From assembly GCA_944368065.1 (NCBI GenBank), contig CALVWV010000011.1, positions 61,683-125,682 of the forward strand: a stretch of DNA of 64,000 bases, read 5' to 3'. Origin of the DNA: an uncultured Clostridia bacterium (lineage in GTDB: Bacteria; Bacillota; Clostridia; Christensenellales; Borkfalkiaceae). This document shows, piece after piece, positions 42,204-47,024 of the stretch; the stretch's first letter is position 1; the number at the start of each line of letters is the position of its first letter. The translations under genes and the position numbers were made by a program. The notes beneath the pieces are model-generated. The model ran no database searches, had not been told where the DNA came from, and saw nothing but the letters and a program-made list of their open reading frames with translations.

Positions 42204-43286
42204 TTAAAGTTTTATTGTCCGCTTGAAGCGCATGCCTTTAGGTATTTCGCGGCTTGCAAAAGCGCTTTCGCCGCCCTCTGAAACGGACTTTACGGCGCTT
42301 AAAATATCCGCGGGTAAAGCATCTTTATTATAGAGCACGAGGACGTCTGCATCGTAATCGGCGGCGCCGCGGGTATAATAGTCGAGTTCGTCGGGATAAA
42401 TGGCAAAACCTATGCCGCCGTCGCCCGCGCCGAATTTTTTTACGAGGTTATCGTATCTGCCGCCCGAAAGCACTGCGCGCGGAGATTTTTCGGCATATCC
42501 CTGAAAGACTATGCCGTTGTAGTATGCCGGGTCGTTGATGAGCGAAAAATCCACTTCAAAATATTTTGCCTGACCGCCGAGGGAGCGAAGAGCGCCTTCG
42601 AGTTCGTCCGCCGCGGAAATGCACCTTGAATTTTCAGGGAACAGCGAGCGGAGCAGAGCAATTTTATCGTTTGCCCCGCCTTCCGCGCCGATAAGCTTTT
42701 TAAGCTTTGAAGCAACCTCTTCGCTTATGCCGCAGTCTGAACATACGCAAGTTATATCGTGAAGGTTGCGCGCACGCACGCACGCCGCAACTTCGGCGGG
42801 GAGCTCTTCCCTGCCGCACTCGTTTGCAACGCCCTTGAGCGCGCCCATGTGCGAAATTTCCATGACGCACCCGCCGCCCGTCGCTTTAAGGCTTTCAGCC
42901 GCGAGTGAAAGCACCTCGAGCTGGGCGTATTCATCCACGTCGCCGACGTACTCTAAACCTATCTGACCTATTTCCCTGAACTGCCCGCCGGGGCGGTCGG
43001 GGCGGTAAACGCTTTCGCGGTAGTAGACCTTGCGCGTCTTTTTAAGCCCCTTGCAGTTTTTGACTATGGACAGCGTTACGTCGGGCTTCAAAGCAAGCAG
43101 TCTGCCGTCGCCGCCGCTGAAAGTTATTATATCCTTACTGCGCAGAAAATTGAGATTATCCGAATAAAGCGAATACTCTTCGAACCTGCGCATCTGAAAG
43201 CGCGAATACCCGTAACTTTCATACAAGCCCTTAAGACTTAAGTAAAGGCGCTCCTCTTCGGTAAGGTTGAGATTATCTTTTATCAT
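42204..43286 (-). CDS. hisZ: ATP phosphoribosyltransferase regulatory subunit
   Basis: A 360-aa histidyl-tRNA-synthetase-like protein that activates short HisG and carries histidine feedback. It has the class II synthetase core, with the motif-2-like KTRKVYYRESVYRPDRPG (about 80) and a GGRYDNLVKKFG segment (about 275), and lacks a normal anticodon domain. It overlaps the end of the yerC gene by 14 bases, so regulator and operon are coupled. Confidence 0.94.
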   Translation of the reverse strand: MIKDNLNLTEEERLYLSLKGLYESYGYSRFQMRRFEEYSLYSDNLNFLRSKDIITFSGGDGRLLALKPDVTLSIVKNCKGLKKTRKVYYRESVYRPDRPGGQFREIGQIGLEYVGDVDEYAQLEVLSLAAESLKATGGGCVMEISHMGALKGVANECGREELPAEVAACVRARNLHDITCVCSDCGISEEVASKLKKLIGAEGGANDKIALLRSLFPENSRCISAADELEGALRSLGGQAKYFEVDFSLINDPAYYNGIVFQGYAEKSPRAVLSGGRYDNLVKKFGAGDGGIGFAIYPDELDYYTRGAADYDADVLVLYNKDALPADILSAVKSVSEGGESAFASREIPKGMRFKRTIKL

Positions 43287-43605
43287 TATCTTCCCCTTCG
43301 CCGCTCAGCTCTCCCTGCTCAGCGCAGTATTTTCCGAGTATTTCGCGGTAACCGCCGCTTCCGTGCTGAAGACAGCGCGACACGCGCGAAAGCGTGGCGG
43401 ACGAAATATCCGTGATTTCTATTATTTTGTTGTATGTATAGCCCTTAAGAAGAAGTCTGGCGCACAGAAGCCGCTGGGAAAGCTGTTCTACCTCGGTATA
43501 GGTGCAGAGGTCTGCAAGCAGTTTTTCAAAGTCCTCAGCGCGGCTTATTCCTGCAAAAAGTTCATATAAATCTTTATGCGCCTGTTCCCTGTCGAATTTT
43601 TCCAT
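43273..43605 (-). CDS. YerC/YecD family TrpR-like regulator
   Basis: A 110-aa protein of the TrpR-related YerC/YecD family. The DNA-binding helix-turn-helix is LLLKGYTYNKIIEITDISSATLSRVSRCL (starting about residue 50). In Firmicutes, members of this family have been proposed as histidine-responsive repressors of his genes; its place as first gene of the his operon supports that here. It is likely to act at the promoter-leader region 43670-43739. Confidence 0.92.
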   Translation of the reverse strand: MEKFDREQAHKDLYELFAGISRAEDFEKLLADLCTYTEVEQLSQRLLCARLLLKGYTYNKIIEITDISSATLSRVSRCLQHGSGGYREILGKYCAEQGELSGEGEDNDKR

Positions 43606-44025: not shown

Positions 44026-46752
44026 TCAGTCCAGATTTTCGGGCTGAGCTGCGGTATGCTTTTTCTTCCACAATCTCAGGAAAATTTTGCTTATTTCCAC
44101 GGCGACGAGCGGGAAGAGCGCGAGCGCGAGCACTATCAGATACTGATACCACTCAAGGTATACGAGCTCGAAGAAGTCCATAACGCCGGGCACGAACGAA
44201 ACTAACGCCACTATCGCAAGCGAGCCCGCCATTGCGCCGTAAAGGAACTTATTGTGACCCTGTCCGGGGCGGAAAACGCTGTCGTAATTGGAGCGCTGGT
44301 TTATCGCGTGAACGAGCTGCGAAAGCGAAAGCACCATAAACGTCATCGTCATTGCGATGTTGTGCGTCTCCTCTTCATTAGCGCCGAAGCACGCTTCGGC
44401 TATCCAGTAAGCAGAAAGCGAAGCCATTGTTATAAACAATCCGTGCAGAACTATGCGCGCTATAACACCCTTTTCAAACAGCGTGCCGCTTTTTACGGGC
44501 GGCACTTTCATCACGTTCCTGTCCGCAGGGTCTACGCCGAGCGCGATTGCGGGAAGAGAGTCCGTAGCAAGGTTGATAAGAAGCACGTGTATTGCAAGTA
44601 TGGGGTCGGGCCAGCCGAAAAGGAAGGCGAGGAAAAGCGTTAAAATTTCCGATATGTTGCCCGCAACGAGGAACTGTATGACCTTTTGTATGTTGCGGTA
44701 AACGCGCCTGCCCTCCCTTATGGCGTGCTCTATAGTAGTAAAGTTGTCGTCGAGGAGTATCATGTCCGCGGCGTCTTTGGCAACGTCCGTGCCGGTTATG
44801 CCCATCGCAACGCCTATATCCGCCTCTTTTAAAGCGGGACTGTCGTTTACGCCGTCGCCCGTCATCGCCGCGACCTCGCCCGTGCGCTTGAGCGATTTTA
44901 TTATGCGAAGTTTATCCGAAGGCGACACGCGCGCGAACACCACGCACGTCTTTACCGCCTCGTCGAGCTGTTCGTCCGTCATTTCGTCGAGCTCCGTGCC
45001 CGTAATTACAGTGTTTCCCTTTCTGAATATGTGAAGCTGTTTTGCTATTGCAAGCGCGGTGACTTTGTGGTCGCCCGTTATCATAATGACGCGTATGCCC
45101 GCATCGTGGCATGTTTCCACGGCGCCTATGACTTCCTTTCTGGGCGGGTCTATCATGCCGACCGCACCGATGAACGTCATGCCGTACTCCACGTCCGCCG
45201 TTTCCTCTTCGGGCACTTTTTCAAGTTTTCTCTTAGCAAAGCCCAAAACGCGCAGCGCGCTTTTGGACATATTGTTGCACAGTTCGAGTATTCTGCGGCG
45301 GTCGCCGTCCGTCATCTCGCGCACGCCTCCGCCCGTCTGGAAATGCGTGCACAGCGGCAGCATCTCGTCTACGGCGCCCTTGGTGTAGGCTATAAGCCCG
45401 CCCGACATTTTATTGAGCGTGGTCATTCGCTTTCTGTCCGAGTCGAAGGGCTGTTCGAAAAGCCTGGGGTGCTCGTCTTCGTAATCTTCGGAATTTATGC
45501 CGAACTTATCGGCAAAAAGTATGAGCGCACCCTCGGTAGGGTCGCCCATAGTTTCGCCGGGGCGGTCGGGGTCGAAGTGCGCGTTGCCGCAGAGTGCGCA
45601 ACCGTCGAGAAGGGCCTGATAAATTGCGCGGTCATACTTTTCGGCTAAGTTTTCGGTAAGCGTAGGCGTGCCCATCGCAAAATCTTCGCCGACGGCTACG
45701 TGGGTCACCGTCATTTTATTGAGCGTGAGCGTACCCGTCTTGTCGCAGCAGACGACGGTTGCGCTGCCGAGCGTTTCAACGGCGGGCAGGCTTTTGACGA
45801 GCGCGTTCTTTTTAGCCATTCGCTGGACGCCGAACGCCATTATTATGGTCGCCGTTGCAGGCAGACCTTCGGGGATTATGGAAATAGCCAGCGATATGCC
45901 GAGAAGAACGAGCGACTGCCACGTTCTGCCGCCGCGCGCGAAGCCTATTATCATAATCACAACGCACACTATAAGCCCTATGACCGTCAGAATTTTGCCT
46001 ACGGAATTGAGCTTCTTTTTTATAGGGGTCTGGAAATCGTCCTGCTTTTTGAGCATATCGGCAATTTTGCCGACCTCGGTATTCATGCCAGTGCCGACTA
46101 CTATGCCCACGGCGTTGCCGTACATTACCACGGACGAAGAATAAGCCATATTCACCCTGTCGCCGAGGGGCGCGTCTTCGGGCAGCACGGTAGGGCCGTC
46201 CTTGGGCGCGGGAACGCTTTCGCCCGTGAGCGAAGCTTCCTGCACGCTCATGTTGTTGTCGTTTATTATCCTTATATCTGCGGGGACGATAGCGCCGTCC
46301 TCAAGATAGACTATATCGCCGGGTACAAGTTCGCTCGCGGGAACGATGCTCTCTTCCCCGTTTCTCAAGACGCGCGCGTTCGGCGCAGTCATCTTTTTGA
46401 GCGCTTCAAGCGCGTCTGCCGCCTTCTTTTCCTGAATTACGCCCACGGCGGCGTTAAGTACGATTACGCAGAAAATGACTATGGCTTCCGCCAGCCCCTC
46501 GCCGTCCACGAAGAACATCACGAGCGAGAATATCATTGCGATGAACAGTATTATGACCATCACGTCCGAAATCTGCTCAAAAATCATCTTCCATATGCTC
46601 TTGGGTTTTGTTTCCCTCAGAACATTTCTGCCGTATTTTTCAAGGCGGGCAGCCGCCTCCTCATCGGAAAGTCCCTCCTCGCTGGTCTGTAAAACCTCCT
46701 CGGTTTTCTGGTAAGACATCGCGTGCCAAGGCCGTTGTTGTTGGTCTTCCAT
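44026..46752 (-). CDS. P-type Ca2+-type cation ATPase (P2 type)
   Basis: A 908-aa cation pump. Actuator TGES (SLTGESVPAP), phosphorylated aspartate in CDKTGTLT (about 335), hinge GDGVNDSPALK, and transmembrane helix 4 PEGLPA, the signature of Ca2+-type P2A/P2B pumps. Ten membrane helices are expected: two pairs before the phosphorylation domain and six after. The nearest known types are PacL/YloB and plasma-membrane Ca2+ ATPases. Calcium (or manganese) efflux is the likely role. Expression is probably controlled by the attenuator leader immediately upstream. Confidence 0.95.
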   Translation of the reverse strand: MEDQQQRPWHAMSYQKTEEVLQTSEEGLSDEEAAARLEKYGRNVLRETKPKSIWKMIFEQISDVMVIILFIAMIFSLVMFFVDGEGLAEAIVIFCVIVLNAAVGVIQEKKAADALEALKKMTAPNARVLRNGEESIVPASELVPGDIVYLEDGAIVPADIRIINDNNMSVQEASLTGESVPAPKDGPTVLPEDAPLGDRVNMAYSSSVVMYGNAVGIVVGTGMNTEVGKIADMLKKQDDFQTPIKKKLNSVGKILTVIGLIVCVVIMIIGFARGGRTWQSLVLLGISLAISIIPEGLPATATIIMAFGVQRMAKKNALVKSLPAVETLGSATVVCCDKTGTLTLNKMTVTHVAVGEDFAMGTPTLTENLAEKYDRAIYQALLDGCALCGNAHFDPDRPGETMGDPTEGALILFADKFGINSEDYEDEHPRLFEQPFDSDRKRMTTLNKMSGGLIAYTKGAVDEMLPLCTHFQTGGGVREMTDGDRRRILELCNNMSKSALRVLGFAKRKLEKVPEEETADVEYGMTFIGAVGMIDPPRKEVIGAVETCHDAGIRVIMITGDHKVTALAIAKQLHIFRKGNTVITGTELDEMTDEQLDEAVKTCVVFARVSPSDKLRIIKSLKRTGEVAAMTGDGVNDSPALKEADIGVAMGITGTDVAKDAADMILLDDNFTTIEHAIREGRRVYRNIQKVIQFLVAGNISEILTLFLAFLFGWPDPILAIHVLLINLATDSLPAIALGVDPADRNVMKVPPVKSGTLFEKGVIARIVLHGLFITMASLSAYWIAEACFGANEEETHNIAMTMTFMVLSLSQLVHAINQRSNYDSVFRPGQGHNKFLYGAMAGSLAIVALVSFVPGVMDFFELVYLEWYQYLIVLALALFPLVAVEISKIFLRLWKKKHTAAQPENLD

Positions 46753-46943
46753 GGTGCCTTTTTAAAAAATCCTCCTGAAAAAAATATATTCAAAACGCAA
46801 AAAGACATAACCATACAGGTCTGATACCTTATGGTTATGCCTCGGAATTTTGTATCAAGTTATAAATTATTCGTGGGTTGGCGTCGCTACAGTCGCCGTC
46901 TCCTGCGGACATCTATATATCCCCTTGCGTTTTATGTATTAAA
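46753..46943 (-). promoter_or_regulatory. Structured attenuator leader (candidate riboswitch) of the P-type ATPase
   Basis: The roughly 190-base leader contains a terminator-like hairpin inside it: CATAACCATA (46806-46815) pairs with TATGGTTATG (46830-46839), enclosing AGG/CCT, followed on the minus strand by TCTTTTTGCGTTTT. An upstream segment UUGAUAC (46852-46858) can pair with GUAUCAG in the hairpin loop (46821-46827). The very 5' AAAACGCAA (46925-46933) is complementary to TTGCGTTTT in the terminator tail (46792-46800). The 5' domain has a GGCG...CGCC hairpin near 46884-46901. I do not recognise the class. Confidence 0.75.
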
Positions 46944-46944
46944 C

Positions 46945-46986
46945 ATTATAGCATACTTATAAACATTTGTCAACTGCAATATTGCA
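46945..46986 (-). promoter_or_regulatory. Consensus promoter of the P-type ATPase
   Basis: On the minus strand TTGACA (46968-46973), 17 bases, TATAAT (46945-46950), perfect consensus. A perfect palindrome TGCAATATTGCA (46975-46986) adjoins the -35 box. Confidence 0.88.
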
Positions 46987-46990
46987 CGGC

Positions 46991-47024
46991 GCGGCGCGCG
47001 CCGGATGTTTCCGGCGCGCGCCGC
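46991..47024 (-). terminator. Hairpin after the cardiolipin synthase gene
   Basis: A perfect 15-bp stem with a 4-base loop 13 bases after the stop. There is no T run, so it may act as a barrier rather than a classical terminator. Confidence 0.6.

Follow-up and report, generated by a model that had tools for sequence, protein, structure and literature searches.

The window analysed here, a 64,000-nt stretch of DNA from an uncultured Clostridia bacterium, carries on its minus strand (44026–46752) a gene for a 908-aa P2A-type cation-transporting ATPase, assigned by Pfam and by comparison with the PDB, in which the nearest solved chains are LMCA1-type Ca2+-ATPases (6zhf, 9euq). The likeness is to Ca2+ pumps and not to any known Mg2+ exporter, which counts against the Mg2+ scheme considered below. 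Upstream on the same strand lies a TG-extended promoter of the sigma-A type (46945–46973), with TTGACA at 46973–46968, TATAAT at 46950–46945, a 17-nt spacer and a TG preceding the −10 element; it is the sole site with 12 of 12 consensus matches within an 8-kb scan that returned 16 promoter-like sites where 6.6 were expected. From a transcription start that would lie near 46938, a leader of ∼186 nt extends to the ATPase ATG, the probable Shine–Dalgarno sequence of the ATPase being AGGAGG at 46771–46776 (minus strand), with a long spacing of 18 nt. Within the leader, an intrinsic terminator hairpin (46804–46841, minus strand; −19.1 kcal/mol when folded alone) is followed by a U-tract (46799–46803); in 16 aligned sequences, 94.7% of the hairpin cells are paired and the five T residues are invariant. 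The initial annotation, which described a perfect consensus promoter followed by a leader of about 190 bases with an internal terminator-like hairpin and a T-rich tail, was accurate on these points. The leader folds more stably than all of 200 dinucleotide shuffles (z = −3.8; −3.3 for a shorter piece).

Two other features of the neighbourhood may be mentioned. Between the end of a phospholipase-D-like gene and the promoter, a very GC-rich inverted repeat without a T-run is visible by eye at 46993–47022 on the minus strand (GGCGCGCGCCGG...CCGGCGCGCGCC). On the same strand, 43273–43605 encodes a TrpR-like protein of 110 aa (PF01371), directly upstream of genes that by eye resemble hisZ, hisG, hisD and hisC; we presume that it is possibly a local histidine regulator.

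The 5′ part of the leader contains a short ORF that was absent from the initial description. The string AAGGGGA...AUG corresponds to a Shine–Dalgarno site (AAGGGG, 46926–46921) and the start codon of 25 codons (MSAGDGDCSDANPRIIYNLIQNSEA; 46835–46912, minus strand) that end at a TAA (46837–46835). A single frame translates the conserved block in 16 of 16 seed leaders, and both the frame and the placement of the stop are kept in 47 leaders, namely the 16 seeds, window included, and 31 found with a covariance model (46 distinct 45-nt starts); the leader of locus L034, for example, holds the in-frame ORF MSVGDGDSSGAYPRISDNLKVIF. A Shine–Dalgarno match of at least four precedes the chosen start in 38 of the 47, although this match also helped to pick the start, and in one leader (L079) the start was assigned by hand to an inner in-frame ATG. 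Residues 2–10 of the peptides are rich in Asp, accompanied by Gly, Ser and Asn. Over residues 2–14 of the 47 leaders, Asp occurs 139 times versus 18 for Glu, and in later residues 20 versus 34 times; the acid counts are inflated because acidity was one of the grounds on which starts were chosen, with equal weight for D and E in this set (and a higher one for D in the terminator-pattern set described below). An acid-poor subgroup begins with MDADGSTAGPS, and one leader (L206) has a single Asp. Conservation of the peptide stops at about residue 14, the length ranges from 14 to more than 50 residues, and the spacing of the Asp residues varies across the groups, with DGDSSG and similar spacings recurring.

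Synonymous sites lend weak support to coding. In one leader group 7 of 29 variants are synonymous (5.9 expected, p = 0.38) and in another 9 of 25 (4.0 expected, p = 0.012), two further groups being too small; the pairwise count is 191 of 564 against 134 expected, with frame 2 also in excess on ungapped pairs (122 versus 95). RRY codons are common to D, N, S and G, so that part of the selection may be at the nucleotide level and bear on the RNA. From the sequence comparison we infer that the ORF is translated.

The stop codon of the window ORF lies inside the 5′ arm of the terminator (GGCA-UAA-CC). Across the 47 leaders, its position ranges from 16 nt before the hairpin to beyond it, and it is never farther upstream. 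A stop more than 20 nt upstream of the hairpin occurs in none of the 47 in the frame of the ORF, versus 21 in the +1 and 39 in the +2 frame, and 300 shuffles of the spacer gave such a stop in a mean of 7.9 of 47 leaders (s.d. 2.4, lowest 2). Codon 13 is mostly separated from the hairpin by 17–33 nt. The leading edge of a ribosome lies about 15 nt past the P site. When this 15-nt rule is applied to the 47 leaders, the mean computed hairpin energy is −19.0 kcal/mol without a ribosome, −19.0 kcal/mol when codon 13 occupies the P site and −4.7 kcal/mol with the ribosome at the stop. A ribosome on codons 10–13 is thus computed to leave the hairpin intact, and 39 of the 47 leaders lose at least half of the hairpin energy when it has reached the stop; more than half remains in the other eight (L003, L033, L035, L037, L063, L064, L068 and L092). 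On these values, failure on the Asp stretch predicts termination and completion of the peptide predicts readthrough. No conserved antiterminator hairpin was found in the alignment or consensus fold of the 16 sequences; direct occlusion of the terminator by the ribosome needs none.

Relatives of the leader were gathered by DNA similarity within the same family of genomes and from the regions upstream of orthologous ATPases. The leader is present in nine of nine members with 71–100% ATPase identity (the window and L033–L040), and a weak DNA match outside the seeds (L023) is a real leader (L217). A leader ORF was found in none of 31 paralogues at 49% identity or below, these being part of a longer list of matches; the rule used detects the leader in only three of the nine orthologues known to carry it, and the count rests on reading of the sequences as well. 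The leader is conserved ahead of orthologous ATPases. For a covariance search in related genomes, which the initial annotation had suggested, a model was built from the 16 ATPase leaders only; of 396 genomes searched in the order it matched 28, and of 391 in the class 12, figures that both include the genome of the window and still contain chance matches; the distribution is sporadic, even within the order. Six matches, L077 (E = 2.3e-7), L088, L097, L099, L100 and L101, were dropped upon reading as gene-end or other terminators without a leader ORF, and L066 as a duplicate of seed L040. The 31 new leaders that were retained fall into seven families of the order (24 leaders; an eighth family holds seed L040) and five families outside it (seven leaders). 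They precede 18 ATPases, two of which (L063 and L064) were typed by their N-termini only, 12 CNNM transmembrane-domain proteins and one gene that is unreadable at a contig end (L092). Pfam identified an ATPase in 20 of 24 proteins, the remainder being, by elimination, L077, L088, L097 and L100, with L099 and L101 outside the scan. Since the model had been trained without CNNM genes, the 12 CNNM leaders amount to a real prediction. Near-identical leaders and ATPase starts occur in three families (L063, f24; L064, f6; L003, f1), reflecting either recent horizontal transfer or mis-binned contigs.

A pattern of the terminator only, GGCATARCC-N(2-30)-GGYTATGYCTTTTTGCG, scanned over 84,980 species genomes, retrieved 37 loci, 23 of them new. 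An upstream ORF of the leader type is present at all 37 (at L202 and L211 by reading), and unrestricted choice gave the same ORF at every locus except these two. At least three D or E residues occur within residues 2–14 at 28 of the 37 loci and at least two at 36, L206 having one. The stop is the TAR inside the hairpin arm at 21 of the 37, a count that is not independent, since an ORF had to extend to 25 nt or less from the hairpin in order to be taken into account. The 36 readable downstream genes comprise 28 P-type ATPases, seven CNNM genes and one alpha/beta hydrolase, so that 35 of 36 belong to the two exporter families with which the leader is associated at the level of sequence. The hydrolase, the sole exception, follows a leader module (MDDADSDGNQDCNHNKIGLCTGRFRA and terminator) in Clostridium sp. 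1001271st1_H5 (L199:6080–6260, minus strand). In Paenibacillus timonensis, P. barengoltzii and P. phocaensis, MSDSDDPESSN or MNDSDDPESSN precedes CNNM, and the pattern also occurs in Intestinibacillus massiliensis and Anaeromassilibacillus sp. An200. When loosened slightly, the pattern matched one of 299 genomes of the phylum, that of the window itself, indicating that the exact terminator is rare.

The association was also approached from the side of the CNNM genes. Among those picked by domain score and having free upstream space, an acidic short ORF precedes 11 of 54, whereas among 99 other genes it precedes one (p = 4e-5); this single control match is a CNNM missed by the filter, the controls come from the same contigs and the window and still contain at least three CNNMs, and the detector rule was set after earlier detector outputs had been obtained. 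At least one of the matches (L173) is doubtful, its ORF ending far before the hairpin. Three versions of the detector were applied to 80 CNNM genes, each retaining a part of them: the first gave a score of at least 3 in 4 of 51 (no control), and the second gave 6 of 47 versus 2 of 118 (p = 0.007), both control matches, the window ATPase and a CNNM, being leaders of the same kind. The CNNM proteins themselves (L102–L181) often start with MDDP, MDADP, MEDPP or MDSEP; D or E near P within residues 2–8 occurs in 28 of 80, versus 13 of 235 controls. Such an acidic N-terminus could act in cis through intrinsic ribosome destabilisation (IRD), as has been reported for CorC, with membrane topology as a confounding factor. 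CNNM/CorC proteins have been linked to Mg2+ efflux in the accessible part of one report (PMC12421838), and in another the direction in which CNNM proteins transport is described as controversial (PMC8726484).

An ORF with its own ribosome-binding site between promoter and terminator is the arrangement of a leader-peptide transcription attenuator, and the leader is very likely one. A ribosome would load at AAGGGG and translate the Asp-rich peptide. Were it lost or stuck on the Asp stretch, the hairpin 46841–46804 with its U-tract would form and transcription would end before the ATPase gene; were the peptide completed, the ribosome would come to stand at the stop in the 5′ arm (or pass through the hairpin in some relatives), no terminator would form and the exporter would be transcribed. 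Acidic residues early in a nascent chain are known to make ribosomes pause or to destabilise them, the latter when Mg2+ is low, as in MgtL of E. coli; the signal is therefore most likely the cytosolic level of a divalent cation, Mg2+ in the first place and Ca2+ or Mn2+ next. A high level would permit complete translation, readthrough and expression of the exporter, that is, the logic of MgtL with the output inverted. Such a response suits an exporter, whereas stalling caused by the metal would switch the exporter off when it is needed. Mg2+ is favoured by the link to CNNM and Ca2+ by the type of the ATPase; the leader of a P2A paralogue in the same genome (L184) resembles a Mn2+ riboswitch by eye, with no Rfam match, which speaks mildly against Mn2+. 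We infer IRD, the identity of the cation and the direction of the response from these considerations, and regard their combination as rather probable. To a ribosome-controlled attenuator that turns the exporter on at high divalent cation, taken as a whole, we would assign a probability of about 0.62. The initial annotation had proposed a metal or calcium sensor; a signal of the metal type is indeed plausible, since the leader also precedes CNNM genes, but the aptamer mechanism that this proposal implied is unsupported.

The same geometry of ORF and terminator would also fit an attenuator that answers to a signal other than a cation, namely impairment of the ribosome, an antibiotic or a shortage of Asp-tRNA, with the exporter taking part in a stress response. 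It is in line with this possibility that EttA and ribosomal protein L31 affect the translation of acidic leaders, according to the portions available of two reports (PMC11282234, PMC8092293). However, the two unrelated downstream families have only cation transport in common. Attenuation by Asp supply, moreover, predicts a gene of the Asp pathway and a conserved antiterminator, and neither is seen; the leader is Asp-rich, but what follows it are cation transporters and not the genes of a trp- or his-type amino-acid attenuator. A non-cation signal is therefore unlikely.

A rather improbable alternative is the one that the initial annotation favoured, in which the conserved leader RNA would be an aptamer riboswitch binding the metal directly and toggling the terminator. 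Nucleotides are conserved within groups, the synonymous signal in the ORF is weak and a long-range helix, P0, shows some compensatory changes, all of which an aptamer would account for. P0 pairs a 5′ strand (AAAACGCAAGGGGA; 46920–46933, minus strand) that contains the leader Shine–Dalgarno AAGGGG with a 3′ strand that overlaps the U-tract (UCUUUUUGCGUUUU; 46792–46805, minus strand), as judged from sequence, pair counts and duplex energy. The 9-base complement noticed earlier (46925–46933 with 46792–46800) is present and extends to 14 pairs when G-U pairs are included. In the 16 aligned sequences, 90.6% of the P0 cells are paired and both sides have changed in 3 of 12 pairs, changed pairs being found in L040 and L011. 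For P0 and the terminator together, 92.5% of cells are paired, versus 40.5–54.3% when the strands are slid; of 500 shuffles, 32 matched or exceeded the number of pairs changed on both sides, and 436 did so for the number of further pair types. The covariation is moderate, and only some of the relatives have a strong P0: over the 46 distinct leaders, the mean duplex energy is −9.8 kcal/mol for matched and −8.1 kcal/mol for mismatched strands, with 12 of 46 in the best tenth. As a universal part of the leader P0 was rejected: the clade of the window and a few other groups have it, but many leaders show a weak P0 or none. Furthermore, its 3′ strand is transcribed only after the U-tract, too late for P0 to have any say in termination. 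In the window clade it may, at a guess, shut off translation of the leader by capping the Shine–Dalgarno sequence, or protect the 5′ end after readthrough.

An alternative pairing of 46852–46858 with the loop at 46821–46827 does exist in the window as 7 bp, yet it falls outside the consensus of the 16 sequences, the loop of the terminator is not conserved, and the pairing, rejected as an antiterminator, is probably due to chance. Besides the terminator and P0, the consensus fold of the 16 sequences contains nothing but one 2-bp element, and an aptamer would leave the preserved reading frame and the placement of its stop relative to the terminator without explanation. What had been taken for a 5′ domain is a Shine–Dalgarno site and an Asp-rich ORF ending on the terminator, and the riboswitch reading is probably wrong.

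The observation that the leader lacks the motifs of the yybP-ykoY, NiCo, M-box and fluoride classes, on the other hand, was borne out. An Rfam scan of the window leader returned no family, either at the gathering cut-off or at E ≤ 10, and a scan of 20 related loci yielded two tRNAs and nothing else; the leader matches no Rfam family and is uncharacterised. The M-box, NiCo, fluoride, Na+ and Li+ riboswitches gave no Rfam match in the window leader or the 20 related loci, and the yybP-ykoY covariance model (RF00080) none in the window leader, at gathering or E ≤ 10. The L1 motif of yybP-ykoY, which we take to be of the GGGGAGUA type, is represented upstream of 10 of the 31 P2A paralogues by GGGAGTA, a motif presumably typical of Mn2+ riboswitches. 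GGGAGTA is absent from the 330 nt upstream of the window ATPase (L032), and the orthologues carry the peptide leader instead. The ten GGGAGTA leaders belong to the same order (L184, in the genome of the window, L189, L190, L191, L041, L046, L052, L057, L060 and L061). Among them, only L052 matched RF00080, with 26 bits (E = 0.0019) and thus short of the gathering cut-off of 45; by eye these leaders resemble yybP-ykoY riboswitches, of which they are possibly a divergent form.

A direct role of the peptide in binding the metal is still less probable than an aptamer. An Asp-rich nascent loop (DxDxS[GD]), which we assume to be EF-hand-like, would bind Ca2+ or another metal and thereby stall or free the ribosome. 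The excess of Asp over Glu in residues 2–14, the recurrence of DGDSSG-like spacing and the resemblance of the pump to Ca2+-ATPases would agree with such a loop, but the Asp spacing is not fixed across groups, residues 2–10 would sit within the exit tunnel, and stalling by the metal would bring about termination when the metal is abundant, the opposite of what an exporter requires. Very remote is the idea that the ORF, conserved and with its own promoter, encodes a stable small protein acting in trans, with the terminator doing no more than closing the transcript: the peptides are conserved up to about residue 14 only, their length varies widely, and the stop follows the terminator and not a protein end.

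We see about an even chance that the leaders represent a widespread class of cation sensor, so far without a name, that works through a nascent peptide and occurs in the Bacillota, in Clostridia as well as Paenibacillus. In such a class, the Asp-rich leader would be translated successfully only at plentiful divalent cation, and the ribosome, by covering the intrinsic terminator, would then switch on the P2A ATPases and CNNM proteins before which this single module is placed. Little is understood of the way in which bacteria perceive an excess of Mg2+ or Ca2+ and switch on exporters; what controls the expression of corC and mgpA has been described as unclear (PMC12421838). The regulatory signature that a clade of P2A ATPases has in common with CNNM genes helps to assign the ATPase substrate, and a compact leader present in named isolates makes a possible reuse of the principle with opposite sign for Gram-positive exporters directly testable. 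Leader-peptide attenuators and acidic Mg2+ leaders are already known; the version with an intrinsic terminator and an Asp-rich peptide before exporters in Bacillota appears to be new, Asp-rich leaders before CNNM or P2A ATPases being absent from the top-ranked papers found in the open-access literature.

Leader peptides and ribosomes control transcription in Gram-positive bacteria in the case of the BmrC/BmrD and YxjB leaders of Bacillus subtilis; these are described as induced by antibiotics and are not linked, in the portions available of the work describing them, to cation exporters or Asp-rich peptides. In Salmonella, an acidic ORF controls a Mg2+ transporter: the Asp2 and Glu5 codons of the 8-aa mgtQ uORF of mgtCBRU destabilise the ribosome, but mgtQ acts on the translation of mgtB via stem-loops and not on transcription termination, and it serves an importer, as far as the available sections describe it (PMC8092293). 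CorC/YbeX and the YoaL leader of mgpA (yoaE) belong to Mg2+-induced genes for excess Mg2+. The N-terminal region of CorC is an IRD sequence and corC expression rises with Mg2+, according to the accessible part of that report (PMC12421838). The K-12 CorC/YbeX N-terminus (MSDDNSHSSDTISNKK, beginning MSDDNSHSSD) resembles leaders such as MSDDDSDSSNLINLI (L093). The acidic motif of CorC, however, lies within the protein itself, and K-12 YoaL is not acidic (MDRHRRHFSIRPF). The present leaders share with IRD leaders the acidic first codons (Asp-rich residues 2–10), the acid-poor MDADGSTAGP subgroup excepted, and the gene that follows is a CNNM in 12 of the 31 leaders found, whereas in the window it encodes a P2A ATPase of the Ca2+ type. 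The requirements for IRD stated in the available text of the cited work do not include that Asp be preferred to Glu.

The closest parallel is MgtL of mgtA in E. coli and Salmonella, an early-acidic short ORF before a Mg2+ transport ATPase, in which the fate of the ribosome decides transcription and low Mg2+ causes ribosome drop-off at EPDP, as described in the available text (PMC11282234). In the enterobacterial examples, destabilisation of the ribosome by acidic chains serves Mg2+ importers. MgtL accordingly turns an importer on in low Mg2+ by way of EPDP and a Rho-dependent terminator, whereas the leaders described here combine exporter-like genes, Asp-Gly/Ser peptides and a terminator made of a hairpin and U-tract, and the response predicted for them is the opposite. 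If this prediction is true, they would be the mirror image of MgtL, with one module reused before two unrelated families of exporters.
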